Shown piece after piece: positions 425-46,700 of a stretch of 64,000 nt of DNA; the stretch's first letter is position 1; every line of letters begins with the position of its first letter. The notes under the pieces were generated by a model, which saw nothing but the letters and a program-made list of their open reading frames with translations, was not told where the DNA came from and did not search any database. The position numbers and the translations under genes were made by a program. Source of the DNA: Quercus robur (Eukaryota; Streptophyta; Magnoliopsida; Fagales; Fagaceae); assembly GCF_932294415.1 (NCBI RefSeq), contig NC_065535.1:12060282-12124281 (forward strand), given 5' to 3'.

Positions 425-595
425 AACATTTTAATAATATTTTTACTACAAATCTTTTTTTTTTTTTTTGGAGAAACTTTTTACTACAAATCTTAAGTCA
501 GATTGTTATTAATTGTTATTTTTATGACTAATAACAATTAATCATTTATGATTTGTTGTAAAAATATTGTAAATATAACATCTCTCTTATTTTGT
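425..595. mobile_element. Palindromic MITE with ACAACATTTTT-type ends, carrying a nested poly(T) insertion
   Basis: The two halves are imperfect inverted copies: the left half reads TTTTTACTACAAATC and the right half GATTTGTTGTAAAAATATTG, with GTTATTAATTGTTA and TAACAATTAA near the centre. Similar palindromes occur near 4050, 12840, 35260, 35470 and 37045, so this is a multi-copy family. The left half is split by a T-run flanked by a direct repeat (see 457-477). Confidence 0.6.
457..477 (-). mobile_element. Poly(A)-only retroinsertion (GTTTCTCC-An on the minus strand)
   Basis: A T-run followed by GGAGAAAC is flanked on both sides by TTTTACTACAAATCTT (about 441-456 and 479-494). Read on the minus strand this is target duplication, eight bases, poly(A), target duplication, as expected from target-primed reverse transcription of the extreme 3' end of a retroposon. 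Confidence 0.6.
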
Positions 596-764
596 TAGGA
601 TGCCAAAATTCCCCCTGTAATGTTGTTTTAATAACGTTATTTAAATATTATGAAAATACGTATGGATGAAAAAAATATTGTGAAAATACGTATTATGTTG
701 TTTAAACAACAAAAATTGTTATTTAAACAACACTAACAAACAGACCCTATAAGTCCACACACAC

Positions 765-805
<41 letters not shown>

Positions 806-5020: not shown

Positions 5021-5240
5021 TTTTTAATGTAGTCCAATTTTTGTCGAGGTCTCTATCTCTAACACACAGGGTGTTTCTCACCCAGTAGAAGCAGTGTGGA
5101 ACTGAAGCAGCTAGAATTGAAGTCCATCACTAGTGGATTTGGATATGTGGGGTAGGTACAAATATTAACCACCAGACACTCGGAGACTTTCATGTATCAC
5201 AATTCACAAATGGCAAATGTTCCTCCACGTGGATTCTCTG

Positions 5241-5283
<43 letters not shown>

Positions 5284-5515
5284 AGGAAAGTGGATTCTCT
5301 GCTGTGAACTGTATATATTATATATATGTGCATTTTGTGAAATTTGGGCTTAAATTTTTTGAACAGCCCAAGTTCTGAACTATAACAAGTCCATTTCGTT
5401 CTCTAGCAGGACCAATGGGAGTTTGTTACTCTGAATCTGAATGGCCCAAGTTTCAAAGCATGCCCAAGGCTCGTGTGTGTGCTAAGAGCTAAACGATGGG
5501 AAGGCACTTGGGGTA
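5021..5515. other. Upstream region of the DnaJ-like gene
   Basis: Holds the presumed promoter and leader of the minus-strand DnaJ-like gene, and a 47 bp poly(T) insertion at 5243-5289. No other gene is seen. Confidence 0.5.
5243..5289 (-). mobile_element. Poly(A)-only retroinsertion (TTTCCTC-A40) with perfect 14 bp TSD
   Basis: T40 plus GAGGAAA is flanked by exact copies of GTGGATTCTCTGCT at 5229-5242 and 5290-5303. On the minus strand the insert reads TTTCCTC followed by A40. It lies about 220 bp upstream of the DnaJ-like start codon. Confidence 0.88.
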
Positions 5516-8500
5516 TCTTTTCTTTTCTTTTTTTTGGGTTAAAAGACGATTTCATAAAACTCAACACATTACATCTAAATCAGTACATAATCTGTTAAAG
5601 AAAACACCAGTACAATCATCCTCCAAAGCCTTAGCTAATTCCACAGGCGGACTTGAAAACAAAATGTATTCTAGTTCTTGGTCAGCTCCTAGTCTAGCCA
5701 TCAGATCAGCGCATCGGTTAGCTTGGCAATAACAATGCTTCAACTGAATTTGCTGAAATCCGGTCATCAACTACCTGCAATCGTCCAAAATGGGAGATAT
5801 AATCTGATTTACATAAGCAGAATTCTTCATGACATCCATAATCACTTTGGCATTTATCTCAACAATAAGACAAGAGATATTCAATCTACTACACAACAAA
5901 AAACCATCCCTCAGCCCCCACAATTTAGCAACAAAACTATTAGTTGCTCCTATATGCCTAGTGAATCCTACAACCCAATTTCCATGCTCATCCCTCACTA
6001 CCCCTCCATATCCCGCCCGCTCCATACACCCAATAACCGAGCCATCAGTGTTCAATTTTTTCCACCCTATGGGCGGTTTCTCCCACCTGATTCTCTTGCT
6101 AACTCTTTAGATTGGGTTGCGTGGAGATGAGACACAAAACATAAACTCTGCAGCTTGATTGGAAATCTCTCTATACAGGTTCGGATTTGGGCTCTTCCTA
6201 TTGAATACAAAAGAGTTCCTACTCTTTCAAATGCACCACACAGTAAAGTTAAACATGATTCTCCAGGGTGGCTTCCCTTGAATAAGACTACATCTCACTT
6301 TCGCATTATTATGCAGCCACTTATGCAGATTACTCCTCCAAAAATCACTATTATTTCCCTTCACACCCAACTGACTCCATATTTGCTTTACCCTTGGACA
6401 ATCTCTAAGGGCATGCAATATGGTTTCTGGATCTCTTTGGCAAATAGGGCACCCTTCATCATCCACAAATCCTCTTCTAACAAGGCAAGTTTTAACTCCT
6501 ATGCTATTATGAAAACATCTCCATATGAAAGTTTTAATTTTAGGGAGTGTATCTAATTCCCAAATCCAACCAACATCTATACTTCCCACATCCTTCACAT
6601 CAACCACCTCTCTAGTAAAGGAATAGGCACTTTTGAGGTCAAAACAACCCCTAGCATTACCTCTCCATCCTAACCTGTCCCTTCCTCCATCCCTTAAGGA
6701 AATAGGAATGGCTTGAATGATTGATTTAATTTCAGGTGTAAGCTCAAAGGGAATTCGATTCCAATCCCAACCTCCACTTACCAAAACATCTTTAATCTTC
6801 CATTGGCTTGCTTCACGGGTTAAAGGACCATGAATGAGGCTGCGGATAGGACCTTTACATGTCCAATTGTCCAGCCAAAAGCTGAGAGTACTGCCTCTAT
6901 GAACCACCCACATGCTGCCTTTGTTAAATGTTTCCCTACCCTTCTTAATGACTCTCCAAATCTGAGAGCAAGGCTGCCTATCCATATTAACAGCATTTAA
7001 TCTCCTATTGCTGCAATATTTTCTTTTTAGCACTCTCACCCACAAAGCATCTTCCTTCGTATGAAACCTCCAATCCAACTTGGCAAGGAGAGCAGTGTTT
7101 CTACTCTTTGCCTCTTGCAAATCCAGCCCACCTTCTTCTTTAGGTTTTGTAACTTTCTACCAGCCAACCCAATGTATTTTCTTTGTAGGCTTCGATGAAC
7201 CCCATAGGAAATTTCTATTAACCCGGTCTATACCATCCAAGATTCTTCCTAGTAAGTAAGTGCCTTGCATGATGTAAGAAGGGATTGTTGTCAAGGAAGC
7301 TTAAATCAAAACAGCCTAGCCAGCCAAAGAGAGCATGTTAGCTTTCCACCCGGACAATTTTTGCTTGACTCTATCTAGGATAAAATTAAACTCTTGAGTG
7401 GTGGCACCCGGATGCTTGATGGGAAATCCAAGGTATTTGCCAAGAGAGGCCATGGAAGCAAAACTAAGAATATCACATAGCGATTCTCTTGTATCCCTAT
7501 CCACATTAGGAGAGAAATATACTCTAGATTTGGTAATACTCACTGATTGCCCCGACATGCTACAAAATTCATCAAGAACATCTCTATTAACAACACACCC
7601 CCTCCCATCTGCCTTCCCAAATAACACCAAATCATCCGCAAAAAATAAATGCAAAAAAGATGGCCCACTTTGAGAAGCCTTAATAGGTTGCCACATTTTT
7701 GCCTCACATTTTTCTTGGATAAGTTGGCCAAGGAAGTCCATACACAATATAAACAAATATGGGGAGAACGGGTCTCCTTGCCTAATCCCTCTCGATGGAT
7801 AAATGGGGTCCAAAACTTCTCCATTCACCAATATTGAGGTCAAAACTGTAGAAACGCAGCTCATAATGAGATCAATCAGGCAAATTGGTTCTAACAAGCA
7901 TGCCTCTTATAAAGCTCCACTCAAGCTTATCATACGCTTTCTCTAAATCCACTTTAATGGCCATATACCCCACTTTCCCCTTCTTTTTGCTAAGGGTGTG
8001 GACAATTTCCTACATAATGATTACATTGTCAATGCCTTTCCTCCCTGGTGCAAAGGCATCTTGAAGAGGGGATATAAGCTTCTCCAAAAAAGGCCTAAGT
8101 CTAGCAACAATAATCTTTGTAATCACTTTATAGACTGTATTGCATAAACTAATAGGCCTATAGTTACCCAATGTCTCCGGTCCTTGAATCTTTGGAATAA
8201 GGACAATGTGAGTCCTATTCAAGAACTCTGAAACTTTCCTCTCAACAAAGACTTTCTTCACCAAATCAATCACAGAATTGCCAACAATCAACCAAAATCT
8301 ATGAAAAAACCCCACATGCAAGCCATCCGGACCTGGGGCCTTAAAAGCCTTAAGAGACCATAAGGCATTTTTAATCTCCTCCCCCAAAGCATCCCCACTA
8401 ATACTCACCCTTTCCTTATCTGATAATTTGCCTTGCCATATAGTGGTAAAAGGAATCGACCAAGATGCACTAGAGAGAGAGGAGGAGTACACATCATTGA

Positions 8501-9642
8501 AACCACTCCAACTGACATTTTTAATTGCCTCTTCCTCATACAGCCACTCCCCTACTAGATCTTTAATTGCCAAAATCTGATTCCTTTTTCTCCTAACCAA
8601 GGTAGACACATGATAGAAGGTAGTATTTCTATTGCCTTGAATCATCCAATTAACTCTAGACTTTAAAGCCCAAATCTCTTTCAGCACATTATCAAGCTCT
8701 TTAAGCAACTCACTCTCAAGATTAAGGATGAAGTTTGACTGTCTAATCGCTATAGCCTGCTGAATGCCATTCAAGCGAGCCATAATATTGTTTTTTCTAG
8801 CAAAGACATTTCCAAATTGCGTTCTATTCCACTTCTCTACCTCTTTAGTGAAAGAATCTATAGCATCCGCAAGCATGGGTTAATGTCTCCATGGTTGAGA
8901 TACTATGTTGGGAAAGGTTGGGTTAGACAACCAACAAGTTTGGAACTTGAAAGGTTTCTTCCTATTAATAGCAACTCTCAACTGCATATCCAACAGCACA
9001 AGGCAGTGGTCTGAATGACATCTAGTCAAGTGAACCACTTTTGCTTCAGGGTGCATAAGGCACCAGCTAGGATTAACAAAAAATCTGTTAATCCTCTCTT
9101 GAATGAGAGCTTGAACATTTCTTTTATCAGTCCATGTGAAATGCGAACCAGAGAACCCAATGTCAATCATACTACATTTATCCAAGCACTCCTTAAAGAG
9201 TAAAGATCTACTGACACTGACAGCCCTTCCCCCAAATTTATCACCCTCCATAAAGGGCTCATTCAAATCCCCAGCTAACACCCAAGGCATATTATGCATC
9301 TCAGCAACTTTAATTAAATTTTCCCATAAGACATGTCTTTCCGCAATTCTAGGACTTGCATAAATTGCAGTAAACAACTAGCTAGAGTTAGAATTTCGTA
9401 CCTTTATCACGGTATGAATCTCCTGTTTAGTGTTGGCTAATGCTGTAATCTCCACCCTATCAGAATTCCACAGCAACCATAAACCACCCGCATAACCAAT
9501 GGTCTCCGTGTGGATAGCACGATCAAAAGGTAGCCTATTTGTAATCTCCCTAGCCCTCTCACATCCAATTCTAATTTCCATCACTACCAAAATTGCTAGA
9601 TTATAGCACCGAATCAACTCCCTAATCACTATATGCATCATC

Positions 9643-9673: not shown

Positions 9674-9681
9674 TAAAAATA

Positions 9682-9705
9682 AGATTTTTTTTTTTTTTGA
9701 GAAAC
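9682..9705 (-). mobile_element. Poly(A)-only retroinsertion (AGGTTTCTC-An on the minus strand)
   Basis: A T-run followed by GAGAAACCT sits between AAATAAGAT and AAATAGGAT, a 9 bp direct repeat with one mismatch. The form matches the other short poly(A) insertions in the window, but the repeat is short. Confidence 0.45.
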
Positions 9706-10308
9706 CTAAAATAGGATATAATTAATTTCAACTTTTAGGCTTATAGTGTGAGCTCCATGATGATTATTCATTATCATCATGACATCGTGCTAAGAATAAT
9801 CATTATGGTGTTGATAATAAGAAATTTTACCAATTTGAGTTAATTAGAACTCACATCACATGCATTATCTTTCTTAGTCATGACAAAATTAAGATTTTAA
9901 TTTTGGAGGGACCAAAGTGGGAACCAAAAAAAACAATGTTATATTTCAATAGAGGAAAATATACTTAAATTTAAGAATAGATATACCATACAAAATCAAA
10001 CTATTCAAGCAATAAATAAATAAATCTAGTATCTGTCTTACAAAATCAAATTAATCATTTATCAGAAATGAATTTGATGTTCTTTTGAATCTTGAAAATA
10101 ATAAATAAATCTAGTATCTATCTTACAAAATCAAATTAATCATTTATTAGAAATGAATTTGATGTTCTTTTGAATCTTGAAAATAATTTATGATTGAGTC
10201 TGTACTAAATTTGTATTAATTTCATTTTCAATATATGAAGTCACGTAGTCTTTAAGAAAACCACCTCCCTTTTTGTTGTGATATCTAATTTTGATTGAAA
10301 ATGTTCAT
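9706..10308. repeat. Intergenic DNA with an 85 bp tandem duplication
   Basis: An 85 bp unit (starting near TAAATAAATCTAGTATCTGT) is present twice in tandem at about 10017-10190 with only a few differences. The rest is AT-rich without a gene. Confidence 0.8.
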
Positions 10309-11115: not shown

Positions 11116-12411
11116 CTTGTACTTGTATGAGAAACAAAAAGAGTAAATACAAGTACAATCATTCTATAAATGAGTAGGTAAATCGTTGATCTTTTAATCC
11201 TTACCAACCATTTGTCACACAATAGGAAGAAATGATGGTGAATAAAAATATTTGTGTGCTTCGTATTTACCATCGTTCCCATCCAAATTTTGAATTAAAA
11301 AAAAAAAAAAAAAAACTAGTATGAAATATATTGATTAAAGAACACACACGTGTTTTCTCAAAAAAAAAAAAAAAAGAACACACACGTGCACCGCGCATAC
11401 ACATAAGAACAATAAATTAGCTTAGAATAGAAATAAAAGAACAATCATGCTTGAATACACTTAGTCTCTTATTTATTGGTTTGCCCTTAATTTTATACTA
11501 ATTAAAAAAAAAGATTTTTTTTTGTGCATTTACTAAATTATTTAGTAGCATAAAACACCAAATCATAGTGAACAATTTCCTTTTAAAATGTTTTTAAGTT
11601 AAAAAGTTGTTCATTTTAGAGGATGGCCACAACTTATAAGCTAATTGACTCTTTTTTCCTTTTTTTTTTTTTTTTTTCTTTTGGAAAAAAAAAAACTTTG
11701 AAACTTATTAAATTTTTAGACTGGTAAACTTAAAATATTTATTCCATAACAAATTTTGAATTTGAGAAAAAAAAAATACATGGAGGAGGCCTTAGGGCTA
11801 GGATAGCCATGGCCCCTTGGGTCCCAACGTGAGAATGCCCCTGCTCCTAACACGTAAGTCTCTTTACAACATAACGGCACATTTTGCGAGAGAGGTTACA
11901 TATTGTGGAAGAGGTTACACACATATATATTGAATGCACGAGTTAATTATTACTAAACGACGACCCAAGTATTTATAGATTTTCAAACATGGCGTATTAG
12001 ACCAATGCCGTAATCATGTATCAGATACATACATCATTCCTCTCACAGTATATGAATCTTACAGTTGTATGGGACTCACATGTTGTGAGTTAGAAGATAC
12101 ATATATCTAATGTATGAGGTACTTTTTCCCATTTATCGGTCTAACATTATTTTGGATTTTTTAATTTATTATGAATGGTAAGAGTTTAGAGCGTAAAAAC
12201 TAGAGCAATTTTTTTTTTTTTTTAATTGAGGAGAAGACTGTCCAATTATTTAGCTTAACTTTGCTAGTTGGAAATAATTTAATGCATGTTAATGATCAGA
12301 GAACAGCCTTAAGAGTTACGTATTGAGGGAATTACAATTTTTCAACTTTACATTACCCTTTCAATTAGCATTTAGCAGTAAGAGGTTTCACTACTCGATG
12401 CAAGTAAGTAA

Positions 12412-12458: not shown

Positions 12459-12652
12459 TGATAGATCTAAAAGAGTGTAATTGGTCACATCTCTTAATTA
12501 GCATAGGATTTTTTTTTTTTTTTTTTTTTAACGGGAATTAGCATAGGAATTTGCTAAAAAATCAACTTCATTGAAAGGTTGCAGACATGCAGTTAACTCA
12601 TATGATTTATTTATTTCAAAGAATAAATCATACGGTCAATTACACTCTTTTA
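12455..12652. repeat. Duplicated segment A (matches 31845-31985), with terminal inverted repeat
   Basis: About 170 bp beginning GATTGATAGATCTAAAAG is near-identical to 31845-31985, and both copies start at the end of a (TA)n tract. This copy also has a 16 bp inverted repeat: TAAAAGAGTGTAATTG near 12466 and CAATTACACTCTTTTA near 12637-12652. It may therefore be a small MITE. It is interrupted by the poly(T) insertion at 12512. Confidence 0.75.
12512..12539 (-). mobile_element. Poly(A)-only retroinsertion (CCCGTT-An) with empty site preserved at 31895
   Basis: A T-run plus AACGGG lies between two copies of AATTAGCATAGGA. The paralogous segment at about 31890-31905 has a single AATTAGCATAGAAATTTGC and no insert, which is the pre-insertion state. 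Confidence 0.85.
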
Positions 12653-18277: not shown

Positions 18278-18869
18278 TGATGATGTCACAAATAATCCAA
18301 GTCCATAACTCGTCCATATGTCTCGTCCAACGACAGAAACAACAATAGGCGAAGAGAATTACAAGCGTACCAGCGACCCTCGTCCGTATATGGACGACAA
18401 GCCTTCCAAGATGATCTCGTCCGTCTTTCACTAAAAGTGGACGAGATCATCCTGGAGGTCTCGTCCATCCTTACTATGAATGGACTAAAAGTGGACGAGC
18501 TCCTCATGAAGGTCTCGTCCATCCTCACTATGGATGGACGAGTTCATTGGCCCGTCCGACCTAGGTAACTTCCACAGCGGTTACTCCCAATTCTCCGGAC
18601 TCCTCGACACTGGGAACGGTTACCAAACAGATAACCGTTCCACACACACTATATAAGGCTTCTTCGATGAAGGAAAAAGGTATTCAGACATTTTCTTATT
18701 TTTAAGAGAATACTTCTTCGTTACAGAAAGTTCAAAGTAACTAACTTGATCATCGGAGGATTTTTGGCCGGTCATCACCGGTCCCCTCTGATTCTGTGTC
18801 TTTGGTATTACAGGAGATAGCCCGAAGATCAACGTTCAAATCAACCCACTGATAATCAAGGAATCATCA
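18278..18869 (+). repeat. 5' LTR of the Tat element
   Basis: Contains a two-copy internal repeat of about 57 bp (ACTAAAAGTGGACGAG...), a 10 bp inverted repeat (GGAACGGTTA / TAACCGTTCC) and a TATATAAG box at about 18650. Confidence 0.95.
18613..18657 (+). promoter_or_regulatory. LTR core promoter: MYB-type palindrome plus TATA box
   Basis: GGAACGGTTA (18613-18622) and its exact inverted copy TAACCGTTCC (18632-18641) stand 8 bases before TATATAAG (18650-18657). AACGG is the core of plant mitosis-specific MSA/MYB3R sites and AACGGTTA fits MYB binding in general. The same module is in the 3' LTR. Confidence 0.55.
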
Positions 18870-18928
18870 GTTGGCGCCGTCTGTGGGAACGATTGTTTTA
18901 CAGTTTGTTTCTCCGTGACAAAGGGTTG

Positions 18929-20200
18929 ATGGTTCGGACTAGATCAAGGGCTACTAGCCCAGGCCATCAGGGAAGCAGCAACCCGCTTCGCGATCGCCAG
19001 TCTGCGCCGGTCATGCAGTCATCTGCCCAACATGCACAATCTATGGCAGACGCTATGGCGGAGTTGACTCGCCAAAACCAAGAATTACGAATGGAGATTA
19101 ATATGAGGAGGCAAACACAAGAAGAACGTGAAGGAAGACAAACAGATGGTCATGGTGGAAGAGAGAATACCGAAGTCGGAAGTCAGTTTAGAGGCACCAC
19201 TTCGCGAACGGTACCATACTTGAAGGAAGAAATGGACCAAATGAAGAGAGTTATGGAGGAGATGAAAGAGAATATGAAAAGAGCGAATCCGATAGAAGAC
19301 TTGGTTCACAGGACTGATTCTCCCTTTACGGCCTCCATCAACGGTCACCCACTACCATCAAAGTTCAAGTTGCCTTCTCTGGATTCATATGATGGAACAC
19401 GTGACCCGTTTGATCACATAGCCACTTTCAAGACCACCATGCATCTTCAAGGAGTGCCTGATGAGATAATGTGTAGGGCCTTCCCAACCACCCTTAAGGG
19501 TTCGGCGCGAGTTTGGTTTAGTAAAATACCTCCAAATTCGGTGAGTTCTTTTGAAGAGTTGAGCAAGTTATTTGTTAACAATTTCATTGGAGGACAAAGG
19601 CACAAGCGTTCCTCGTCCAGTTTGTTGACGATAGAGCAGGGAGAGAACGAGAGCCTTCGGTCATTTATCACCCGTTTTAACAGGGAAGCTCTCAGTGTGG
19701 ACGAAGCAGATGATAAGCTTCTACTGGCAGCCTTCCACAACGGGGTGAATTCAGATCTGTTTATACATAAGCTCTACGAGAAAGAGCCCCAGTCCATGGC
19801 CGAACTCGTCCATTCGGCTCAAAATTTTATGAATGCGGAAGATGCAATCATTGCTAAGAAGAGGAAAAGGTCCGAGAGAATGGACGCAAATCCCAGTCGT
19901 CAGCACGAGCAAGGTACTCGTCCAAAGAAGGGACGGATGGAGGAAAGGAGAGATCGAGAAAGTAAGAAGCCAGGTCCTCCAGTACGGAACCAGCAGTATA
20001 CCCCTTTAAACGCCCCACTTGAGCAAGTCCTTATGCAAATCAATGATGATCCTTCTCTGAAGTGGCCGGAGAAAATGAAGGGTGATCCCAACAAGCGCAA
20101 CAGGAACAAGTACTGTCGTTTCCATAGGGATCATGGTCATGACACGGACGAGTGTTTTGACTTGAAGCAACAAATTGAAAATCTCATAAGGCAAGGGAAG
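18929..20200 (+). CDS. Gag region of the Tat element
   Basis: Starts MVRTRSRATSPGHQ, shortly after the primer site. A conserved gag domain lies at about 19370-19820 (LPSLDSYDGTRDPFDHIATF, then RVWFSKIPPNSVSSFEELSK). A Cys/His knuckle-like segment YCRFHRDHGHDTDEC follows at about 20110-20156. Gag forms the particle that packages element RNA. Confidence 0.9.
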
Positions 20201-20399
20201 CTGAGGGGTTTCCTTGGACGAGACCAGAGGGACGAGAAACAAAAGGGAAAGATGGAAGATTCATCGCGACCACCACTCGGGGAGATAAGAGTCATCATTG
20301 GGGGAAGTACAACTGGCCAGTCGTCCAAGTCCAAGAAAGCTTACTTGAAGGTAGTACAAAGCGTCCAGCTTTCTGGACAATCACCAATAGCAAGATCCA

Positions 20400-22810
20400 C
20401 GGACGAGCGGGCAATTACTTTCACGGACGAGGATGCTGACAGAATTCATCACCCTCATGATGATGCCCTCGTCATCTCCTTACTAATTGCAAACTACACA
20501 ACCAGAAGAGTGCTTGTGGACAATGGAAGCTCAGCAGACATTTTATATTATCCAGCTTTTCAGCAGATGAGATTAGGACGAGACCAGCTCCGTCCAGGGA
20601 ACTCCCCCCTAGTAGGCTTTGGTGGGATGAAGGTGCAACCAGTGGGTACCATTTCCTTATCCGTGATAGTGGGGGCATATCCACGACAGATTACCAAGGA
20701 TGTGAACTTCCTTGTGGTAGACTGTCCATCCTCTTACAATGCCATCATTGGGAGGCCAACTTTGAATAGTTGGAAAGCTGTTACCTCTACTTACCACTTA
20801 TCAGTCAAGTTTCCGACAGAACATGGGGTAGGACAGGTACAAGGTGACCAACTGGCAGCAAGAGAGTGTTACTTGGCCATGCTGGCCATGGATGAACAAG
20901 TTCAAGCAATGAACATTGAAGAAAAAAGGGTTGTAGCAGAACCTACTGAAGCATTGGAAGATATTCCCTTGGATGAAAATAACCCTGAGAGGTGTACCAG
21001 GGTTGGAGCAGATTTAGAAGAGAAGATTAAGACGGACCTCGTCCAATTTTTGAAGAACAACATCGACGTGTTTGCATGGAGTCACGATGATATGCCGGGT
21101 ATAGACCCTAGTGTCATTACCCACCGTTTGAATGTATGTCCTTCCTCCAAGCCTGTGCGTCAAAAGAAGAGGGTGTTTGCCCCAGAAAGAGATAGTGCAA
21201 TCAAGGACGAGGTCCAAAAGCTGATGGTAGCAAAGTTCATTCGGGAAGTGTACTACCCGGATTGGTTGGCCAATGTAGTAATGGTCAAAAAAGCGAATGG
21301 AAAGTGGAGAATGTGCGTTGACTTCACTGATCTGAATAAGGCTTGCCCCAAGGACAGCTATCCGTTACCGCGCATTGACCAGTTAGTAGACTCAACTGCA
21401 GGCCACAAATTGCTCAGCTTCATGGATGCCTTTTCAGGATACAATCAGATAAGAATGGACGAGGCTGATCAAGAGAAGACATCTTTTGTCACCAGTCAAG
21501 GCTTATTCTGCTATAAGGTGATGCCGTTTGGTTTAAAGAATGCAGGGGCGACATATCAGAGGTTGGTCAACCACATGTTCCGTCCGCAGATTGGGCGGAA
21601 TGTGGAAGTCTATGTAGATGACATGCTGGTGAAAAGTCAGGACGAAGGAAGACATCTAGACGACCTGCAGGAGACATTTGAGACATTGAGGCGGTATCAC
21701 ATGAAGCTGAATCCTAGCAAATGTGCTTTTGGAGTATCATCAGGGAAATTCCTTGGCTTTATGGTATCCCACAGGGGAATTGAAGCAAATCCAGATAAAA
21801 TTCAAGCAATACTGGACATGAAGCCACCGCAAAATACCAAGGAAATCCAATCCCTCACTGGACGAGTCGCTGCGCTTAACAGGTTTGTCTCTAAAGCTAC
21901 TGATAAATGTTTGCCATTTTTTAAGGTTCTTAAAAAAGCATTCGAATGGACCGACGAGTGTCAGAGAGCTTTCGAAGATTTGAAGGTATACCTTACCAGG
22001 GCACCGCTGCTAAGTCCATCAGTGGAAGGAGAAGAACTATATTTGTACCTAGCGGTAACCCCATATGCTGTGAGCTCAGCATTGATAAGAGAGGAAGATA
22101 AAGTCCAGAGACCTGTGTATTATACAAGCAAGGCATTGAAAGGAGCGGAAGGACGATATCCACAAATGGAGAAGTTGGCCTTCGCACTAATCACAGCTTC
22201 AAGGAAGCTGAGGCATTATTTCCAAGCACATGTCATTAATGTTATGACAGATCATCCTCTCAAAAAAGCAATGAATAGACTGGAAGCTGCAGGGCGATTA
22301 ATCCAGTGGGCTGTGGAGCTAAGTGAGTTCGATATCAGATATCAACCAAGGCATGCCATAAAAGCTCAAGCCCTAGCAGATTTTATCGCAGAGTTTACCC
22401 CAAGTCGTAATGAGGCAGATGACAGCAAGAGATGGATCGTCCACGTGGATGGTTCGTCTACACGGCATGCAGGAGGAATTGGTGTGGTCCTGCAGTCCCC
22501 AGAGGGAGACACACTGAAACATAAAGTCCGTCTACAGTACCAAGCGACAAACAATGAAGTCGAATATGAAGCCCTCCTCAAAGGGCTAGAATTGGCGAAG
22601 TCCGTGGAGGCCAAGTCCATATGTGTCATGGGAGATTCCCAACTGATCATGGGGCAAGTGAATGGGATGTATGAAGCGAAGGAAGGACGAATGAAGAAAT
22701 ACCTTGGTAGGGTGATGCGCCTTGTGAAAAGGTTCGAAAAAGCTGACTTCGTTCAAATCCCCAGGGAGGAGAACGTGGAAGCTGATACTATAGCAAAAGA
22801 GGCCTCAGCA
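20400..22810 (+). CDS. Protease, reverse transcriptase and two RNase H domains of the Tat element
   Basis: Aspartic protease with VDNGSSADIL at about 20515. Reverse transcriptase at about 21240-21790 with KWRMCVDFTDLNKACPKDSY and the catalytic YVDDMLVKS near 21611. The usual gypsy RNase H at about 22020-22390 (YTSKALKGAEGRYPQMEKLA). A second, archaeal-type RNase H at about 22430-22810 (VHVDGSSTRHAGGIGVVLQS ... NNEVEYEALL ... GDSQLIMGQV). The double RNase H places the element in the Tat lineage. Confidence 0.93.
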
Positions 22811-23084
22811 GATGAATCATTAGAGAAGTCAGATGAAGTTCAGTATATGCCGAGTATAGATGCCCAGGAAGTACAGCAGGTGGATAACAGAGAAAATTGG
22901 ATGACTCCCATTATATCATATTTGAAAGACGGACGACTACCAGAAGAAAAGGACGAGGCCAGAAAGGTGAGGGTGAGATCAGCTAGATACGTCCTTATGA
23001 ATGAAGTGCTATACAAGAGAGGCTTCTCTCAACCTTACCTTAGGTGCCTAGCTCCGGACGAAGCGAACTACGTGCTGAGAGAAG

Positions 23085-24133
23085 TTCACGAAGGGGCATG
23101 TGGCAATCACTCAGGAGCCAGATCACTTGTCCACAAGGTCGTCCGTGCAGGATATTACTGGCCGAACATGCAAGCTGATGCAAAAGCATACGTTAAAGTC
23201 TGCGACCAGTGCCAGTGATTTAGCAATGTCCCCAGGCAACCATCGGAATACCTCACCCCAATGGTAGCACCGTGGCCCTTCGCACAATGGGGATTGGACA
23301 TTTTGGGTCCCTTCCCTTTGGGAGTAAGACAGATGAAGTTTTTAGTTGTGGGCATCGATTACTTCACCAAATGGGTGGAGGCAGAACCGTTGGCAAATAT
23401 CACACAACAGAATGTTAAGAACTTCGTGTGGAAGAACATTGTCTGCAGATTTGGAGTGCCGAAGGTATTGGTGTCTGACAACGGACGGCAATTTGACAAT
23501 GCACTCTTCAAGGACTTTTGCTTACACTTTGGAATTCAGAACCATTACTCCTCGCCTGCACACCCCCAAGCCAACGGCCAGGCTGAAGTAGCAAACCGAT
23601 CCTTGTTGAAAATCATCAAGACTCGGCTTGAGGGGGCAAAGGGAATATGGCCAGATGAATTACCAGGAGTTTTATGGGCATACAGGACCACTGTGAGGAC
23701 CCCTACAGGGGAGACCCCTTTCAAGTTAGCCTATGGAAGCGATGCAGTCATACCTGCAGAAGTGCATATGGCTAATCACAGGGTGATGACGTATCAAGAC
23801 AAGGATAATGAGGACCAGCTTCGTCTGAACCTCGATCTAATAGACGAGGTAAGGGCAAACGCAGAATACAGGGCAGCAAAGTATAAGAACCTCATGGCTA
23901 GGCAGTATGATGCGATGGTGAAGCCTAGGCGTTTCAATATAGGAGATCTCGTCCTGAGAAAGGTCTCTTTGTCAACCAAGAACCCAGCACATGGGAAGTT
24001 GGGCCCAAACTGGGAAGGACCCTATAGAGTAATCAACTGTAAAAGGCAAGGATCCTACTACCTGGAGGCCCTGGACGGGAGAAAATTGGAACATCCTTGG
24101 AATGTGGAGCACCTGAGGAGGTACTACCAGTAA
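23085..24133 (+). CDS. Integrase region of the Tat element
   Basis: A zinc-binding HHCC segment (HEGACGNHSGARSLVHK...YYWPNM...CDQCQ) is followed by the DDE core (WGLDILGPFPLG, then VSDNGRQFDN and HPQANGQAEVANRSL) and a C-terminal GPYRV-type domain. No chromodomain is visible, as usual for Tat. Integrase inserts the element cDNA into host DNA. Confidence 0.92.
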
Positions 24134-29008: not shown

Positions 29009-30058
29009 TTAAGTAGTTGGTTTCCCCATAGGTTTGAGTCCGAGGACCATGCAATACCTCGGTTCTATCCAAAACTTAGATATTTTCATTAAGTAGTTGG
29101 TTTCCCCATAGGTTTGAGTCTGAGGACCATGCAATACCTTGGTTCTGTCCAAAACTTAACTCTTTAAGTAGTTGGTTTCCCCATAGGTTTGAGTCCGAGG
29201 ACCATGCAATACCTTGGTTCTGTCCAAAACTTAGTTCTTTAAGTAATTGGTTTCCCCATAGGTTTGAGTCCGAGGACCATGTAACACCTTGGTTCTGTCC
29301 AAAACTTAGTTTTTAAGTAGTTGATTTCCCCATAGGTTTGAGTCCGAAGACCATGCAATACCTTGGTTCTATCCAAAACTTGATTTTTAAGTAGTTGGTT
29401 TCCCCATAGGTTTGAGTCCGAGGACCATGCAATACCTTGGTTCTGTCCAAAACTTGATTCTTTAAGTAGTTGGTTTCCCCATAGGTTTGAGTCCAAGGAC
29501 CATGCAATACCTTGGTTCTGTCCAAAACTTGATTTTTAAGTAGTTGGTTTCCCCATAGGTTTAAGTCCGATGACCATGCAATACCTTGGTTCTGTCCAAA
29601 ACTTGATTCTTTAAGTAGTTGGTTTCCCCATAGATTTGAGTCCAAGGACCATGCAATACCTTTGTTCTGTCCAAAACTTGATTTTTAAGTAGTTGTTTTC
29701 CCCATAAGTTTGAGTCCAAGGACCATGCAATACCTTGGTTCTGTCCAAAACTTGATTCTTTAAGTATTTGGTTTCCCCATAGGTTTAAGTCTGAGGACCA
29801 TGCAATACCTTGGTTCTGTCCAAAACTTGATTTTTAAGTAGTTGGTTTCCCCATAGGTTTGAGTCCGAGGACCATGCAATACCTTGATTTTGTCCAAAAC
29901 TTAGTTTTTAAGTAGTTGGTTTCCCCATAGGTTTGAGTTCGAGGACCATGCAATACCTTGGTTCTGTCCAAAACTTGATTTTTAAGTAGTTGGTTTCCCC
30001 ATAGGTTTGAGTCCGACCATGCAATACCTTGGTTCTGTCCAAAACTTGATTCTTTAAG
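29009..30058. repeat. Tandem array, about 14 units of ~75 bp
   Basis: Unit: TTAAGTAGTTGGTTTCCCCA, then TAGGTTTGAGTCCGAGGACC, then ATGCAATACCTTGGTTCTGT, then CCAAAACTTGAT. Starts lie near 29009, 29089, 29163, 29238, 29312, 29387, 29462, 29535, 29611, 29684, 29759, 29833, 29908 and 29982. From about 29387 the joins alternate between GATTTTTAAG and GATTCTTTAAG, so the array is partly a ~149 bp dimer repeat. It is internal to the outer LTR element, beside its primer site. Confidence 0.95.
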
Positions 30059-30302
30059 TTTGGGGAGATTAGCCCCTCGGCCAAGGTACGGGACATTGGT
30101 TTGGGGGGATTAGCCCCTCGGCCAAGCCCCTAGAACCATCCGCGCTACTGGCGTTTCGAAGCGTAGCCCCTAATGGAAAAACGTAGCCCCTAGTGGAACT
30201 TTATGTTAGGGCACTACAACGGGCTGTTGGAAGTGATGGGGGGAAATTTCTCGAATCACCGCCTGTGCCAACACACAAGCCTTCCCCACGGACGGCGCCA
30301 AT
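30059..30302. other. Internal region of the outer element, primer-site end
   Basis: GATTAGCCCCTCGGCCAAG occurs twice and CGTAGCCCCTA twice. The segment ends in the primer site complement next to the LTR at 30303. No coding sequence. Confidence 0.6.
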
Positions 30303-31849: not shown

Positions 31850-34256
31850 ATTGATAGATCTAAAAGAGTGTAATTGGCCACGTCTCTTAATTAGCATAGA
31901 AATTTGCTTAAAACTTAAGTTCATTGAAAGGTTGCAGACATGCAGTTAGCTCATATGATTTCTTTATTTATTTCAGAGAATCAGGATCAAAACCTGTCTT
32001 TTTCTGATTGAGAATGCATGAGTCATGACAAAATGCATTAAAACTATGAAATTTCCTGCAATTGGAAAACTGATTCATTGTTTTACTTGTTGTTTTGGTC
32101 AGGTAACTAACTAAAATATTCCATCCTTGTAGGATATCCTGGATGAAACAGTGCCTTAAAGGAATAGAGTATAGTATATTGGTATCAGTGCGAGACACAT
32201 TGAGAGAGAGATAGAGAGAGACAGAGAGGTATTGTTTGGATTTGCTTAAGTAGGAAAAGGGAATTGACCAAATTGGCATGTACTATGACAGGATTCGTCC
32301 TCAAACAGTTGGTTTTCTTGGTTAGTTTTTAATACAATTCTCTTATTTACCAAAAAAAAAAAAAAAAAAAAGAGGGAGAGAATTGATAGGGTAAGGAGAC
32401 ATGAGAGGGACATCCCACCAAACTTTATAATTAGGAGCACATGAAAGTATGACAATGATGTTGAAACTATGTGGTATATAATGCTATATATTCGATGCAT
32501 GTTTCATAAAATGGGGCGAACTATAGCTTATAGTGCTTGATAAACGTAGAATCCGAGGCTTTGGATTTTGGGACCTCCTTCCACTTCCACATGCTTCGCC
32601 TTTTATTTGGGCTTCCCTTTTCTCTGTCATCCATAGCCATTGGGGTCCTTGCTCGTGTTCGGATAAGAATTTTCACTGGTTATTTTTTTAATGGCTCTCT
32701 GCCTTTCTTTAATTTTTTCTTACTTTTATTTCCATTGTCCATTTGTGCTTTTTGGCTTTCTTATATTTGACTCCACACACAAAGGACCATGTCCTGACAG
32801 CTGAGAGAGTGACTGAGAGATGGATATGATCTTTTTCTCTCTCTCTCTTCGAAGTTGATTCCAAGGAAGTACTTAAATAGCATGCCTATGCTATTCTTTT
32901 TTTGTTAACATGTTTATGCTAATCTTAGAACTTAAGGCTGCAACACTGTGGGCTCACAGTGAAGCTAATAAATAATAATAGATGGTTGATTCCTAAGACT
33001 TTACTTAATGATATTACTAAGTAAAGGATTGCATTACTTCAAAGCATTTTATTGGATACCTATTCATCTAGAACATGACGTTGATGATGCACCATAATTT
33101 TTTGCTTCATGTCTGCCTTATGTAGTAGTTATTTTCATGAAACAACATTCATATAAGTCTTGATTGAATATAATGACCAACAAAAAAAGAGACTTGAATA
33201 TCGATTAGGTAGGAATGACTATGAAAGGTACAATACAATACGAGAGTTTCCTTTAATCAAATTAATGGAGAAGGTGGCGACTCTTAAAGGAGGAATATGC
33301 TCTTGTTTTAGCTTTAACTTTTCCTAGAGAAAATTAAGATTTTAAACAAATTATTGTTGAGTCATAGAACGATTCCTATAGAACTAAAGTTTTAATAACT
33401 AGTTAACGTTAAGATTCACATTAGAGTTGCTTCACCAAGAGCTTTCGGCTGCAATTATTTGATAGAACTTGTGGGTCAATGGCATGTACTATTTTAAGTT
33501 TGATTAATTGCATCGTAATTAATAGAAGATATAATTGAACACTATTCTTATATTTACACGTAAATTTAATTGATTTTTTGGCCCTCTCAATCTAATCATG
33601 TTCATGATTAAAAAGACAAAAAAAAAAAAAAAAAAAAAAGCTCTCTCGTGCTTTTAATCCTGATCCAAAGGCTACATTGTGGGTGGTATAGCAATCCATT
33701 TCAAGTCTACTTTAACATGCAAACAAAGAATAAAGGTCATTATGAGGGCTTTAAGATTATGTAAATGACAAAGATGATCCAGCATCAAATCACATAAAGA
33801 CATAGATTCTTTTATAGGACGTCATGGTGTTTTTCTCATGGGAGAGTAAAGAGTAGTGAAAGTTGGGGAGTGAAGAGTGACGGTAAAGCAAAGAGAAAGT
33901 GTAACTAGTAATGCTGTAGGAGAATTCAGCAAAAAGTTTAGAGCTGTGCAGAAGAGTGTGTTGGCCAAATAAACCAACAAAAATAATAAAGTGAAGCAGT
34001 GGGGACTCCGACCAAAAAGTAATGCAAAAGATGGGTTATAAAATAGGACTAGACAGTACCAAGGCTCCAAATCAATAAAAAGAAGGCTAATCGCTAATGT
34101 TGATTTGAAAAACTTAGAGAAGACAAAGCTTAATTATGAAAACTCCACTTTTATTCTATAGTTTCCTGATGATTTTATGTTGGAGCTGGATTGATATGCA
34201 TATAGTAGTATACATGCATGTTCAATAATTTTTTTATGGGACTTAAAATATTTTTT
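31761..34256. other. Intergenic DNA, includes duplicated segment B
   Basis: 31845-31985 is the second copy of the segment at 12455-12625, again starting at a (TA)n tract (31820-31844). The rest, including T-, A- and GA-rich runs, shows no gene I can support. Confidence 0.55.
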
Positions 34257-37606: not shown

Positions 37607-38446
37607 GTACTGATCGAGTTCTCATTCATGTAAAAAGTTTTCGTCTATTTGATTTTCTTGTTTGTGTTTGTGTTTTGAGTTTTTTTTATTTTTTGAATAA
37701 TGTATTGGACTAGATAGTTCCCTGGGATTTTCTTTATTTTAAAAATTAAATTTAAAATTTCTTCTTGGTAATTGTGCATTCTTTTTATTTCTTTTCATGT
37801 TTTCAATTTCATAATGCTTCAATTCTTTTAATTTTTCATTTATTTTTTGTGTGCATTTGTTTGGATATGGTTTTTCTTGGTTTGTTAGGTAGTGTTCTTT
37901 ACGATTACTTCTGACAATGATTTTGCCCTAGTTTTGGGGAATCATAGGAATGGTTTGGTACCTTGGTTTGGGTTTTTTTTTGGCTTTGAAATAACTTTTT
38001 TCTTTTAAACAATATTTTGAAATTTTGGTTCTGTGATTTGTAATATACAGTAATCCTTTGTTTGGGTGCTGAGAAAATGGGATTTTCAAGGGGTTTTATG
38101 TGGTGGATTTAAAAATGTAGTACATAGTAGTGTAAATTTTTTAATTTAAAACAAACTCCGTTTTGATTAAGCTTGATTTAACCATTTAGCTTAGTGGAAT
38201 TCCCATTTTCCATTAATTTGGAGAAATAAAATTTTTTTTGTTCAGTACTAATATATTCTTTTTTTAAAAAATTGATGTTTTGTTGTTGTAAAAATTAAAA
38301 CAGTATAGGTTAATGTGGGATTTTCGACTGGTTCTTTGTGATTTACTATACTGTCCTGTTTTTCTGTGATTTCTATTAGTCACATCTTGAAGATTTTGTA
38401 TTTGTATTGACTCTTTATTTACTTTTATGTGTGCTAGGTATACAAA

Positions 38447-40469: not shown

Positions 40470-43400
40470 GCAATGGAAGATGGCTGTTTTCCAATTTAAA
40501 ATCTTGCAAAACTAGCATTTCATCTTGGTGAACAACGGTGTTATTGAACGGTGATCCAGACATTGATGTAAATTTGTTGTTTTCTAGCTTCTATTCCATT
40601 TGTTGCTTTATTTTTTAAAACATTTGTAGTTAGATGGGGGTCTTGAGTTGGTTGGGGGGGGGGGGGGGGGGGTGGGAGTGGGTTGGGGCGCTCTTTGATG
40701 CAACTCTGGAATGATTAGGAATGAAGATAATAGTAAAATTGTTTATGTTTAAGATTGACTTCCAGGGTTTAACCTACTCTCTTGTGCTGAGCTGATATAT
40801 ATAAATTTGGTCTTGCAAAGTAGGTTAATGTCTTATCAAAAGGAGGGGTAAGTAGGTGAAACGTTAAAGTATACATAAATGTCCAAAGTTTTTCTTATTT
40901 TATTAGTACGATTATTTGTTGGAAGACAGAAATCTAACGGTTTAATTTTTTTTAAATTCCTAAGGTCACATGAAATTTTTCCAGGACAAGAGGGTTAGGG
41001 GGTTAGGAACTTAGGATAGCAATAACTATAGCTTGGGGCTTTCACCGACAAAAAAATAAGTGTTGGTCGGTAGTTATACGTTGACATCATAGTTCACCCA
41101 CCATCACATCACTGCTTAGAAAGTTTTGTGACACTTTAAATTAAGGTGTTAGAAAAATTATATAATTTCTCTATACTTTATGGTATTTTAAATTTAATCC
41201 TAATTTTTTTTATAAAAAAAAAGACAATTAAAAGTGACCTTTTCAATTGTTTCAATTCAAACACAGATACGGACCATTTCAAAAGATACTATTACCATTA
41301 GATTATCACTCATTTACTTAAACCTCCTAAAGTTCTTTAAATTAAATAAATGTAACATCATATATTAACATAAGTTGTGGATAAAACTTATCTAAACAAA
41401 ACTATTTCATGTGAAACTATAAGAAGTCTCGATACTAAATGACAATTATGAAATTATATAATAATTAGTTATTTAATTAGTCCAAAAAAATTAATAAAGA
41501 TATAAGTTATATAAGTTTATGCTCACATCATATCATATCATGATACTAGTTCAACTCTTCTATAAAAAAAATTGATATTAGTTCAACTATCGTATATTAA
41601 TATTATGGATTAAAAAGTTGTATAATATTCAACCAAAAAAAAAAAAAAAAAAAAAAAAGAGAGAGAGAAAAAGTTGTACATATATTGAGGTCTCGTCAGG
41701 TGGATATGGATGTCATCTTTCTATTCCTTTTCATTTTTTAACACTTTTTTCTTTTCATTTTTTCTCCTTTGCCATGTGGCACCCATTAAAAATTTTCAAG
41801 TTTACTCTATTATCAAATTTTGAAGCTATTTGCTCCAAATACAATGCTATCATCATAAGTTTCTAGAAATATAAATGAACTTTTTTTTTTTTTTTGAGAG
41901 GAATAAATGAACTTCTATTAATTTAATCATCTATCAAGTTTTTTAATAATAATATTTGGTAATATATGTCATACTTGCATTATATGGCTCATGCTTTTCC
42001 CATGCGATGCATTATAATTACATTATTATTGTGGGCATCAAAAACAAACTATCCTTGCTAGGAATATAGGCAATATTACCGGAATGGTGTTTAATTGACA
42101 GTCACAATTTATTTATCTAAAAAGGTTGGGAAAAACACTCCACAATGGGAGACTCAAACAATTGATCTAATAAACTTTGCTTGTATTTCAAGTGAAACTA
42201 GCACATTACAATAGGAAAAATTCTATTTCCCGTGGTATTGCACTATAACAGATTAGTAGTTTTCTCTCTATTTCTCTCTCTTCTCTTTTTTCAACCCCTT
42301 TCTATTTGCTTGCCCCCCCCCCCCCCTTTATATAAGCACATTTTTTGCCCTTATCCCTCCAGCTTTCCTATCTCCAACCAAATTCTCAGGGATATTTTCA
42401 TCTTCTTTATCAGTTTCCTCCCTTTCCTTATCCTAGAACATGACATTTGGGGGTGTTTGTATTGTTCAAATTGTCTCATATGCATTCAATGTGGCAGAGG
42501 TTAGGTGGAAGTCCCTTCATTAATGCGGATGTAAAGATCTCTGCCATTCTTATGTGTTTTGAAAGATTTCCTGTGGTTCTAAGTGCCAACTGTAGGTACG
42601 CCGTGAATTATCTGTGTACATTTCCTCGGATAAGACTTTGCTCCATGTATTTTATTGCCAACTTTGCGGGAACAGTCTATAAGGATTCCTTTTGCCTCCT
42701 AGATGCTATTGAGTTTTACCTTAAGCGTGTGGGTTTGGCCCATTCCACTCCATGGGGTCCAATAGGTATTTGGGCCTTAGGCTTGGGTGACTTTTCCACT
42801 CCCCATAATTATTATTAACATAATTAATTCTAAATGAAATTTTAATACAGAGGTTCATGAACATTAAAAAAATTTAAAAATTCAATAACCAAAGGGTTTT
42901 TTAAAATTTAAATAAGTTTCATTATTTATTTTAAAATTTTAAAATTAATTATATTTTTTGGTTTTGACAAAAACTCTATTTTCACAATGTTTGGTCATTT
43001 ATCTTTATTATCATATATTTTTATTTAATTTCAATTATTTAATTGAAAAGCTTTCAAGTTTCAACCCTACTTATTCACTAAAAAGGTTGAAATTCTATTT
43101 ATCAATCCATACCACACTAGCTATTTATTAAGGTGTTCCGTAAGTTGTGTCAACCTATTTAATAAATAAGTCTTGTTTAGATCAAAGGATTTTGACCTGT
43201 GCTCTAGTTGGGTTGGCGTGACTATCAAGTCATATAGTCAAGCTCCTTTCCCTTAACACAACACAAACACGACTGGCCAACAAAAAGAGCCATCATAAGC
43301 AATCCGTTCTGAATCCCATAGGCAGCAGCATCTATAAAGAACGTTTGCTTTGAGGCAGATTTTATGTAGTTTGTCTAAATCATAACAAATATCAAAATCT

Positions 43401-43786
43401 GCTGTTGATGATCCGGCATGTAGCTTATACCAGACTAATGATACTGCAGCGTTGATTTATAATGAAAAACCCATTCCATTTCATAGAGGGGGACAAAAAA
43501 AGATCTCATGCAGAATTCAAGGTATGACCTATGTCCCAGCACTTAGATTTTCCACTTTCCAGTAATATGGCAAACAAATCAGGTAGTCCATGCGAGAAAT
43601 TTAAGCATGAGAGATTGAAAAGCATTCCGGCCATTGAACATAGACTTCATCGGTTCAATAATAACAAAGAGGTAGCAGAGTTCTCAATCATTCACCATAT
43701 AAAAGAGAACTAACATGAACTCGTAAGTTCTGCAACATCTTTGAGTTTAATGTCTCCCCAGATATTTGAGCAAGAAAATAGTTTTC
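40470..43786. other. Intergenic DNA between HVA22-like and L24 genes
   Basis: After the HVA22 3' UTR there is a G19 run (40654-40672). A short poly(T) insertion lies at 41883-41900. From about 42225 to 42810 is a stretch with LTR-like composition (TTAATGCGGATG, CCATGGGGTCCAATAGG), probably a decayed LTR fragment. No gene seen. Confidence 0.45.
41883..41901 (-). mobile_element. Poly(A)-only retroinsertion (CCTCTC-An on the minus strand)
   Basis: A T-run plus GAGAGGA sits between two copies of ATAAATGAACTT (about 41871-41882 and 41902-41913). Same structure as the other short insertions. Confidence 0.65.
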
Positions 43787-46700
43787 CTAGAGGCTTGGCA
43801 TGCCCATCCCTGTTTTAGAATCGTAAGTCTTCTCCAGCACGAGATCCATTGGCGTATCCTTGGGACCAGCTGTAGAAACGAAATAACAATGTGACCAAAG
43901 TGCATAAAATATTAAGCAGAATTATAACAAGCAATAAACTCTCCAACTGGTTCTTAGAAGGAGAGGGTGGCAAGTTCAAAAGAAACTTCACAAAACAAAG
44001 AATTCATTCAGAATCCTTGTATTTTTTTTTTTTTTGGGGGGGCGGAAATTACACTTTACCATCCTAAACTATACACTAGATTACACTTTGAACCCTACAC
44101 TATTCGAATGCACACTTTGCATCCTAAACTATCACAATTATCACACTTAGCACCCCTACGTTACTTTTACTGTAAAGTTAGACAAAAATAATATTACATG
44201 ACTTGCACATGATTTTCTCTTAGGTGTCACACTATTTAAAGACCAAAACACTCTTTTCACAAACAATTAAAAACAAAATGCTTATTTTTTTTCTCATTTT
44301 TTTTCCAGTTCTGTCTCTCTCTCTCGTGCATACAGGTACAGCTCTTCCCCTCTCTCTTGCCCATGGCAGCTCTTCTCCTCTTTACCATTATTCAGTTTCT
44401 CTTCTCCCCAAATCAATTGCTGATAAGCACGAGTCCTCCTAAGGTCAAATGAAGTGATTGGTAGCTAGGATGTTTCCCTACTTTTGGGCTTTGCCTAAAC
44501 ATACCACCCTTGTTTTCTGGGAATTGTTTGAATTTATGTTTGGTTTTCCAAATAGAGGGAAATAGATTAAAACATTTCGGTCTTGTTTTGCTATTCATTT
44601 CTAAGATTAGCTCATTAGTTATTACAAGCAACGCAAAGATGGTGTTGAATTGGCTCTTGTTTAATGGAATTAAAGGACTAGCAATATTACGTAGTTCTTT
44701 GAAAATCAAAACTCATTGCAATGGCCTTCAGTGCTTTATAAAATACAATATAGTCAGTCATACAGTGCCAGCTTTGACTTCTGATGTTCTTGGAAAAGAA
44801 TAACAGTCAGTCATACAGGGGAAGAGCTGCTGGGCAGGAGAGAGGGGAAGGGCTGTATGCAGAGAGCAAGACCAGAAAAAGAAAATAAGCATTTTGCTTT
44901 TAATTGTTTGTGAAAAGGGTGTTTTGGTCTTTAAATAGTGACACCTAAGCGAAAATCATGTGCAAGTCATGTGATATTAATTTCTATTTAACTTAACAGT
45001 AAAAGTAATGTGGGGATGCAAAGTGTGATAAATGTGACAGTTTATGGTACAAAGCGTGCATTCGAATATTTTAGAGTGCAAAGTGCAATTTAGTATATAG
45101 TTTAGGGTGGTAAAGTGTAATTTCCCCTTTTTTTGATTGGTAATAATACTTTTATTGAAAAAATTGAACATCATGTTCAAGATGTATTCTCTTCTATATC
45201 TCTTTATTTCTTTTTTCTTCCCAATTTTCTCAAGGTTTGATTCTGACTTGTACATCTATTTCAAAAGGAAAACTCCATATTTTGGCAACCATATCTTCTG
45301 ATGGATGCCAGCTTAAAAGCCCTGTTGGTACCTATTGACAACCTCAATTGGAATCATACTGGTTACTGTTGAGCAATGGGTGTTTCAAAAGACATGCTCC
45401 TGTTTTTTGATGGGTAAGTTACACACAGTAGATCTTCTCCATCCCATTATTATGAGACGAGGAAGTGTCAATTGAGCAATAGCTCAATTGGCAAAAGGCA
45501 TGCTCACTTGTGTGTTTGGATGCACTTATTTTCATAAGACACAATAGACATAAAACATAGATGTTAAATATACATATGACATGATTCTCAAAAAACATAT
45601 ATACATATGACATTGCAAGGCACACAACACCAGCCATTCATGTTCCCATCCAGTCTGCCATATGGATGTAGCATACCCTCAATTCAACTAAGCCTTAATC
45701 TTGATTAAATTGATGTTGACTTCATAAATCTTCATCAAATTAGAGTCAACTACAACATGTTCCTATATTGTCCACCATATGGATGTAGCATATTCTCAAC
45801 TCAACTAAGCTCTAAACCCAATTAAATAGGAGTTGACTTCACAAATCCCCATCAATTATTTAGAGTTGATTTTGAACCTAATATTTCGCTCTTCAGCTTA
45901 TTCTACCAGGGGAAAAAGATGCCATTTAAGCTAAACTGCTAGAGCTCATTGGCGAGTCTACTACATTTATTCTTTCCTACCATTTTATCCTATTTAAAAG
46001 CCTCTATCTTGCTGCTCTAGTCAACAAAACCTTCTTTATGACTTCTACCCATATCGTTTTAGGCCTCCCTCTATGATGCAAAACAAGTTTGAAAGAATAA
46101 GAGATAAAATGGGGAAAAAACAAACAAAACAAAATACTCTAGGCTTCACCACCTAAGGGTTCTTGGAATCACCACCAAACTGTAAAGAAACATCTCTAAT
46201 TAGCAATCTTATTCAAAATGCATTGTCTGAAAACTATTCCTGGAGCCTCTTTTTAATAAGTTTCAAAGATTACATTAAGCTACAATTACATCTCACAAAT
46301 TGAAATCTACAGCCCTGATAAAGGACAAATTCATTATTTAAAAATAAAAACCTAATATCTGAAAAGAAAAATATGAAACAAGAAAATCTGAAATAATTTG
46401 GATGTGCTCCCTGCATCACTCTTACCTATTTTCACTCAACTCAGTTGAATCACTTTTTCACCAACACATGAATTGGTCTCTGTTGCAGAAGACTATCTCA
46501 AGTGGCTCTCCCCCATCACTTCTTCAATATGAGCTACACCTACCTTTGAGGCAAACTACATTCCATATCTTATCATTCCTATCATTACCCTGTATCCATT
46601 TGGACATTCTCAATTAAGCTATGTTCATTTCATAGCTAACTACAACCAGTCTTATATAGCTTTTATTATTGGCAAGTTACACATTGACCATGGTTTTTGA

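Follow-up and report, generated by a model that had tools for sequence, protein, structure and literature searches.

What leaves a run of A, some six other bases and little else between two copies of a target sequence at several places in one plant locus? The question is raised by a 64,000 nt stretch of the Quercus robur genome (C2:12,060,282–12,124,281 in an assembly of 785,749,727 bases and 42 contigs), referred to here as the window. An earlier note had described seven such tiny inserts in it and attributed them to target-primed reverse transcription (TPRT) that was aborted almost at once. That attribution has held up, and a TPRT origin is well supported by an excess of target-site duplications (TSDs), AA-rich targets, an empty site, the abundance of TTTCTC-A12 in the genome and the presence of the same tail at the ends of long interspersed nuclear elements (LINEs). 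It is likely, in our judgement, that TPRT was cut short on reaching the base of a 3′ stem-loop in the RNA and that this stem-loop, which in many of the source LINE RNAs ends in GG before UUUCUC-An, would set the stop.

The inserts in the window are listed below in poly(A) orientation, with n/m giving the matching over the total bases of the TSD. The window scan for TSDs used a score cut of 8.

457–477, minus strand: insert 457, GTTTCTCC-A13, between TSD copies at 440–456 and 478–494 (17/17).
5243–5289, minus strand: insert 5243, TTTCCTC-A40, between TSD copies at 5229–5242 and 5290–5303 (14/14).
9686–9707, minus strand: probable insert 9682, AGGTTTCTC-A13, between weak TSD copies at 9676–9685 and 9708–9717 (9/10), the whole spanning 9676–9717.
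11353–11372, plus strand: insert 11353, TTTTCTC-A13, between TSD copies at 11337–11352 and 11373–11388 (16/16).
12513–12535, minus strand: insert 12512, CCCGTT-A17, a tail other than TTTCTC, between TSD copies at 12496–12512 and 12536–12552 (16/17).
41557–41572, plus strand: insert 41557, CTTCTAT-A8-T, between 16 bp TSDs at 41541–41556 and 41573–41588 (15/16).
41883–41902, minus strand: insert 41883, TCCTCTC-A13, between TSD copies at 41871–41882 and 41903–41914 (12/12).
45583–45598, plus strand: insert 45583, GATTCTC-A6 followed by CAT, between TSD copies at 45568–45582 and 45599–45613 (15/15).

Six of the seven sites described earlier are clear, with TSDs of 12–17 bp, which lie within the roughly 7–20 bp of an L1-mediated TPRT product, and the poly(A) adjoins the TSD, with three extra bases after the A run in insert 45583. 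The seventh, 9682, is weak, with a TSD score of 7 that falls under the cut; it is among the listed GGTTTCTC-A12 places and is a probable insert. Insert 41557 had been overlooked. The description of six of the seven tails as variants of TTTCTC stands for inserts 457, 9682 and 11353, in which TTTCTC is exact, and is otherwise generous, as three other tails are one or two changes off and CCCGTT is unrelated. Two weaker candidates were also seen in the window, an A18 run with a 16/18 repeat at 61936 and an A7 run with an 11/12 repeat at 32897.

The frequency of TSDs was compared with chance using 372 runs of at least eight A (A8+) from the window and 20 random 10 kb loci, one of which (L009; C5:37565689–37575688) consists mostly of a satellite array with many short A runs. 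A TSD score of at least 10 was obtained for 16 of the 372 runs; when the downstream flanks were permuted 20 times, the mean was 0.25. Three of these 16 rows are poor members: L027:1153, which lies in a tandem repeat, and the two rows of L020:4882/4896, where one poly(T)/poly(A) doublet was picked up once per strand. When the frequency of each 5-mer before any A was taken as the expectation, TTCTC preceded 10 of 174 A10+ runs (window and 19 loci, L009 set aside) against 0.45 expected. Other 5-mers enriched before these runs were AAAAG (10 versus 1.07), AAACC (5 versus 0.48), AACCC (5 versus 0.41) and CAGTG (5 versus 0.15). To list tails only, and with no permutation control, 1,253 A6+ runs from 32 sources were also scanned; this gave 34 rows, among them tandem and simple repeats.

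A genome-wide pattern scan found TTTCTC-A12 at 7,068 places (3,513 + 3,555) and the same pattern read backwards at 440, this control being a rough one that keeps the composition and moves the A run to the other side. By the same comparison, GGTTTCTC-A12 was found at 636 places (9 backwards) and a second tail, ATTCAGC-A12, at 518 (6 backwards). From the first 66 listed TTTCTC-A12 places six were dropped, five because they had already been fetched as the GG loci described below (three of these being short inserts) and one because it lay beside another place. Forty of the remaining 60 were fetched, all within the first 6.7 Mb of C1, and so are a local sample rather than one spread over the genome. 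In 21 of the 40 a TSD score of at least 9 accompanied an insert of no more than 30 nt, giving the form [TSD][5–11 nt][An][TSD], whereas 0.48 was the figure from 50 permutations; among the 21 is L076, which lies within a simple TTTC repeat and of which L059 is a sister copy. TSDs are far above permuted flanks in both data sets. The part before the A run was 5 nt long in one of the 21 inserts (L076), 6 nt in five, 7 nt in nine, 8 nt in three, and 9, 10 and 11 nt in one each. Tiny TSD-flanked inserts of tail alone are numerous in the genome, probably in the thousands; extrapolating 21/40 to the 7,068 places, from one chromosome arm, would give approximately 3,700 such stubs for the TTTCTC tail at A12 or longer.

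In order to see where this tail comes from, 20 GGTTTCTC-A12 loci (the first set of GG loci) were fetched with 400 bp upstream of each. Six are short inserts, though the TSD of L036 is weak (15/17), and 14 are not, so that roughly 450 of the 636 ends would, by extrapolation of 14/20, be something other than stubs. The ten upstream frames that looked most coding-like among 17 were searched against Pfam, L038, L040, L047 and L049 falling outside the ten. RVT_3, an RNase H-like domain with which plant L1-type LINEs end, was matched in eight (L037, L039, L042, L045, L046, L050, L052 and L053); the L043 and L048 frames, also among the ten, gave no RVT_3 match. On this evidence, GGTTTCTC-An ends L1-type LINEs in this genome. 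An end resembling that of a short interspersed nuclear element (SINE), ..CCCTCTCCCTTGTGTGTGTGTTTGTTTCTC-An, was recognized by eye in 5 of the 40 TTTCTC loci (L057, L066, L077, L087 and L088). Because LINE ends and SINE-like ends both carry TTTCTC-An, the tail of the window inserts is that of LINE 3′ ends and is common to a short repeat. This comparison, proposed earlier, bears out the shared tail and speaks against the claim of one retroposon family, since the tail is common to LINE ends with different hairpins and to a SINE-like repeat; further evidence against a single family is that other tails, such as ATTCAGC-A12 and the CCCGTT of the window, give inserts of similar size. The 6–8 nt of the inserts match the LINE tail and are too short to prove the descent of any single insert. 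The stubs presumably derive from TTTCTC LINE RNAs and not from SINE-like RNAs with the same tail. The inserts themselves hold only approximately 6–12 non-A bases and have no internal RNA polymerase III promoter, a SINE trait. A SINE-like repeat with a B-box-like GTTCAAGTC was seen at L026:7257–7428, L072 and L105, with TTTCTC-An inserts near its 3′ end.

An empty site is available for one insert. Locus L040 carries CTCCTTCTC-A15 between GTACCTTAATCTT and GTACCTTAATTTT, a 13 bp TSD (12/13). L112, a paralogous copy of the same repeat, which ends in GGTTTCTC-An, has the target site once and no insert when the two are aligned by eye. This pair records a gain with TSD and not the growth of a run. 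A less clear pair is formed by L072, a SINE-like copy with a TTTCTC-A22 insert, and the uninterrupted L026:7428–7257, at 76 % identity. A comparison of 43 inserts with all fetched sequence found no new empty site; the only spanning matches were those of a window insert with its own copy, L001, and of L076 with the sister copy carrying the same run. With respect to the target, the L1-type cleavage consensus is TT/AAAA, and among the 16 TSDs scored at least 12 (L076 removed), 13 begin with AA and 14 follow T or C by hand count; as the A run beside the second TSD copy matches any A, the leading As are inflated and partly an artefact, and the context is best described as a relaxed form of the consensus.

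Insert length was surveyed in 284 kb, made up of the window and 22 random loci, with an exact TSD of at least 12 bp, an A8+ run and up to 1500 nt allowed. L009, L010 and L029 were omitted as satellite or tandem-rich; L029 (C2:7022620–7032619) is an array of tandem units of about 1 kb in which A8 runs recur. The non-A lengths of the short inserts were 6, 6, 7, 7, 7, 7, 8, 8, 8, 11 and 14 nt, nine of the 11 thus falling at 6–8 nt, and five of the 11 sit in the window itself. Longer inserts measured 59, 79 and 1257 nt, to which three rows in the L027 tandem repeat must be added.

At 6–8 nt, most of these scars end at the point that corresponds, in many LINE RNAs, to the base of a 3′ stem-loop. 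A hairpin is formed at many TTTCTC LINE ends, its 3′ arm closing with the GG that immediately precedes TTTCTC; L039, L047, L052, L053 and L097 are examples, as are L037, L049, L096 and L106, in which a U is bulged. Genome-wide, GTCTGGTTTCTC-A8 was found at 165 places and its control at 1, and CCAG..CTGG/TTTCTC-A8 in 102 rows (at least 100 distinct loci among the matches listed) with none in the control. The arms CCCC..GGTGG gave 85 rows, representing 46 distinct loci. The mismatched arms CCAG..GGTGG, one of the two mismatched combinations and the one counted, were found at no place in the genome; CCTT..AAGG arms occur at 3 places, too few for a two-by-two test. For covariation, 56 hairpins, 39 of them distinct, were compared with sets in which the 3′ letters were shuffled, related copies not being independent. 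Pair 5 was standard in 35 of 39 (28.3 shuffled) and pair 7 in 27 of 37 (20.8 shuffled). A stem survey covered 80 loci, of which 37 were non-short, 35 short and 8 unclassed. A stem of at least 4 bp abutting the tail was found in 17/37 non-short and 3/35 short loci, with 8.58 in the shuffled non-short set. At a minimum free energy (MFE) of −6 or below, a cut chosen post hoc, an abutting stem was present in 11 of the 18 non-short GG loci and in 0/35 short loci. One locus, L049, is an insert of 26 nt comprising the complete hairpin and tail, with a TSD of 16/16.

Several observations weigh against the stem-loop as the cause of the stop. The hairpin excess at the 4 bp threshold is modest, pair 6 shows none (36/39 versus 35.2 shuffled), and the MFE cut, which was set after the data were seen, is reached by none of the 19 non-short loci that came from the TTTCTC set. 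LINE ends L046 and L050, both with RVT_3, lack a strong hairpin abutting TTTCTC, as do L048, L038 and the L040/L112 repeat, and L073 and L074 are LINE-like ends in which no hairpin was recognized by eye. Extra 5′ bases foreign to the LINE tail are common, 5 of the 21 inserts having an extra C (CTTTCTC) where the LINE tail has G, possibly an untemplated addition or the mark of another LINE lineage. Finally, inserts with other tails (CCCGTT, GAATTC, ATTCAGC, TTGCACAAC, GTTAACC and CATGGCTTATT) are also 6–12 nt long, as an intrinsic early stop, rather than arrest by RNA structure, would lead one to expect. Given these lengths and the LINE ends without a hairpin, we go no further than inferring a causal role for the hairpin. 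Two of the other tails occur together at L007:2521–2610, where short GAATTC-A13 and ATTCAGC-A7 inserts face one another and their target sites overlap.

The alternatives differ in what they make of these lengths. If TPRT were aborted by an intrinsic stop, one that belongs to the enzyme's own transition from initiation to elongation shortly after it leaves the poly(A) (a few nucleotides on) and is independent of any hairpin, then unrelated tails would be expected to give 6–12 nt inserts, as they do, and LINE ends that carry the tail and lack a strong abutting hairpin would present no difficulty. Such a stop leaves unexplained why inserts of the TTTCTC class usually end exactly where many of the LINE ends of that class have their stem base, and we regard it as possible, if doubtful. 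Another source of short products would be a tiny template, that is, 3′ fragments of decayed RNA (approximately 6–8 nt plus poly(A), protected by tail proteins) copied to their 5′ end. This accounts for the narrow lengths and the diverse tails. However, a 5′-to-3′ nuclease halted by the hairpin would keep the hairpin, and the stubs exclude it; this is an argument and not a test, and L049 alone among the 14 non-short GG loci of the first set is a TSD-flanked insert of hairpin plus tail. Arrest of the enzyme is accordingly preferred over a pre-shortened template, which is unlikely.

Ordinary 5′ truncation of LINEs, with a broad distribution of lengths of which these inserts would be the shortest end, shares the tails and TSDs, and intermediate lengths do exist, as in the 62 nt SINE-like insert L077 (TSD 13/13) and in L049. 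Against this, the 284 kb survey has ten inserts at 6–11 nt, none at 0–5 nt and at most four credible ones at 12–1500 nt, and lengths confined so narrowly are unlike random truncation, making this origin quite improbable. Expansion of A runs by microsatellite slippage beside chance direct repeats can appeal to the commonness of A runs and to flagged rows that are plain tandem or simple repeats (L027 and L076), but it is contradicted by the TSD excess, the motif excess and the empty site and is scarcely credible.

We therefore return to TPRT arrested at the stem-loop, for which the steps that we infer, including which protein does the work, would be as follows. An L1-type endonuclease would nick the target at an AA-rich site, and the cut end would prime on poly(A), either that of a LINE RNA or that of a SINE-like RNA carrying the same tail. 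Reverse transcription would copy the As and about six nucleotides before them and then halt, the enzyme, arriving from the 3′ side, failing to open the stem-loop or to displace a protein bound there. Joining of the stub to the upstream side would give [TSD][about TTTCTC][An][TSD]. A broader proposal is put forward tentatively, with rather more reserve than confidence, namely that the 3′ stem-loop acts as an initiation checkpoint, with most TPRT events stopping at its base, and that abortive stubs, some 6 nt and poly(A), are the main heritable product of the element, several-fold more numerous than real copies (approximately 3,700 versus roughly 450 by the extrapolations above) and a fossil record of failed retrotransposition. 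If this were true, thousands of loci usually dismissed as simple repeats would mark L1 cuts that failed, the stubs would show the initiation-to-elongation step of TPRT in DNA, and they would help to explain part of the length polymorphism of A runs in plants. In any plant with a sequenced genome, the step can be tested by comparing stub length with hairpin position in each family.

The window also contains the following retroelements.

5528–9377, minus strand: decayed L1-type LINE with RVT_1 and zf-RVT matches, its 3′ end read by eye.
18,821–23,218: polyprotein of a long terminal repeat (LTR) retrotransposon, the polyprotein frames spanning 18821–24133.

The LINE was considered as the source of the TTTCTC tail and rejected, as its own 3′ tail, read by eye, is TTTTAACCC-A8. 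The window also has a 54 bp repeat that occurs twice, at 18430 and 27700, and a 74 bp tandem array of 14 copies at 29009–30059. Rfam and tRNA scans of the window gave no matches. A reading frame at 19–494 on the minus strand, likely a diphthamide synthase, has a borderline match to tetrapyrrole methylase (27.9 bits against a cut-off of 27.8), and insert 457 is upstream of that match.

No description of a tail-only insert class with a fixed stop was found among the top matches in the open-licence literature, which does not imply that none is in print. That L1 can leave short, A-rich products between TSDs is known in principle, and poly(A)-only L1-mediated insertions have been seen in human disease as rare single cases. 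The inserts described here resemble the latter in having almost only an A tail between TSDs, and differ in that they recur, share a tail and stop within a narrow range. Tailless retropseudogenes are aberrant short products that have been ascribed to the L1 machinery (Schmitz et al., cited in PMC3747384); as presented there they are without poly(A), whereas the inserts here consist almost wholly of poly(A). Closer to the LINE ends examined here is a plant L1 lineage, described from maize and sorghum, with a conserved 3′ hairpin, CGAG on the 3′ side of the stem and a UCU loop (Ohshima 2013, PMC3747384). As far as that account is drawn on here, a covarying 3′ stem-loop near the tail and a tail common to LINEs and SINEs are shared, and part of the LINE ends of this genome have the 3′ hairpin. 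In contrast, UUUCUC follows the stem here, the loops vary, and the CGAG flank and UCU loop are lacking; the passages of that paper used for this comparison make no mention of aborted stubs. With 5′-truncated L1-type LINE insertions made by TPRT, finally, the inserts have in common the TSDs, the poly(A) end, AA-rich cleavage in a relaxed form and a tail that matches a LINE 3′ end, but they retain mostly 6–8 nt of the element with a narrow length mode and, unlike that class, are more numerous in the 284 kb survey than TSD-flanked inserts of greater length.

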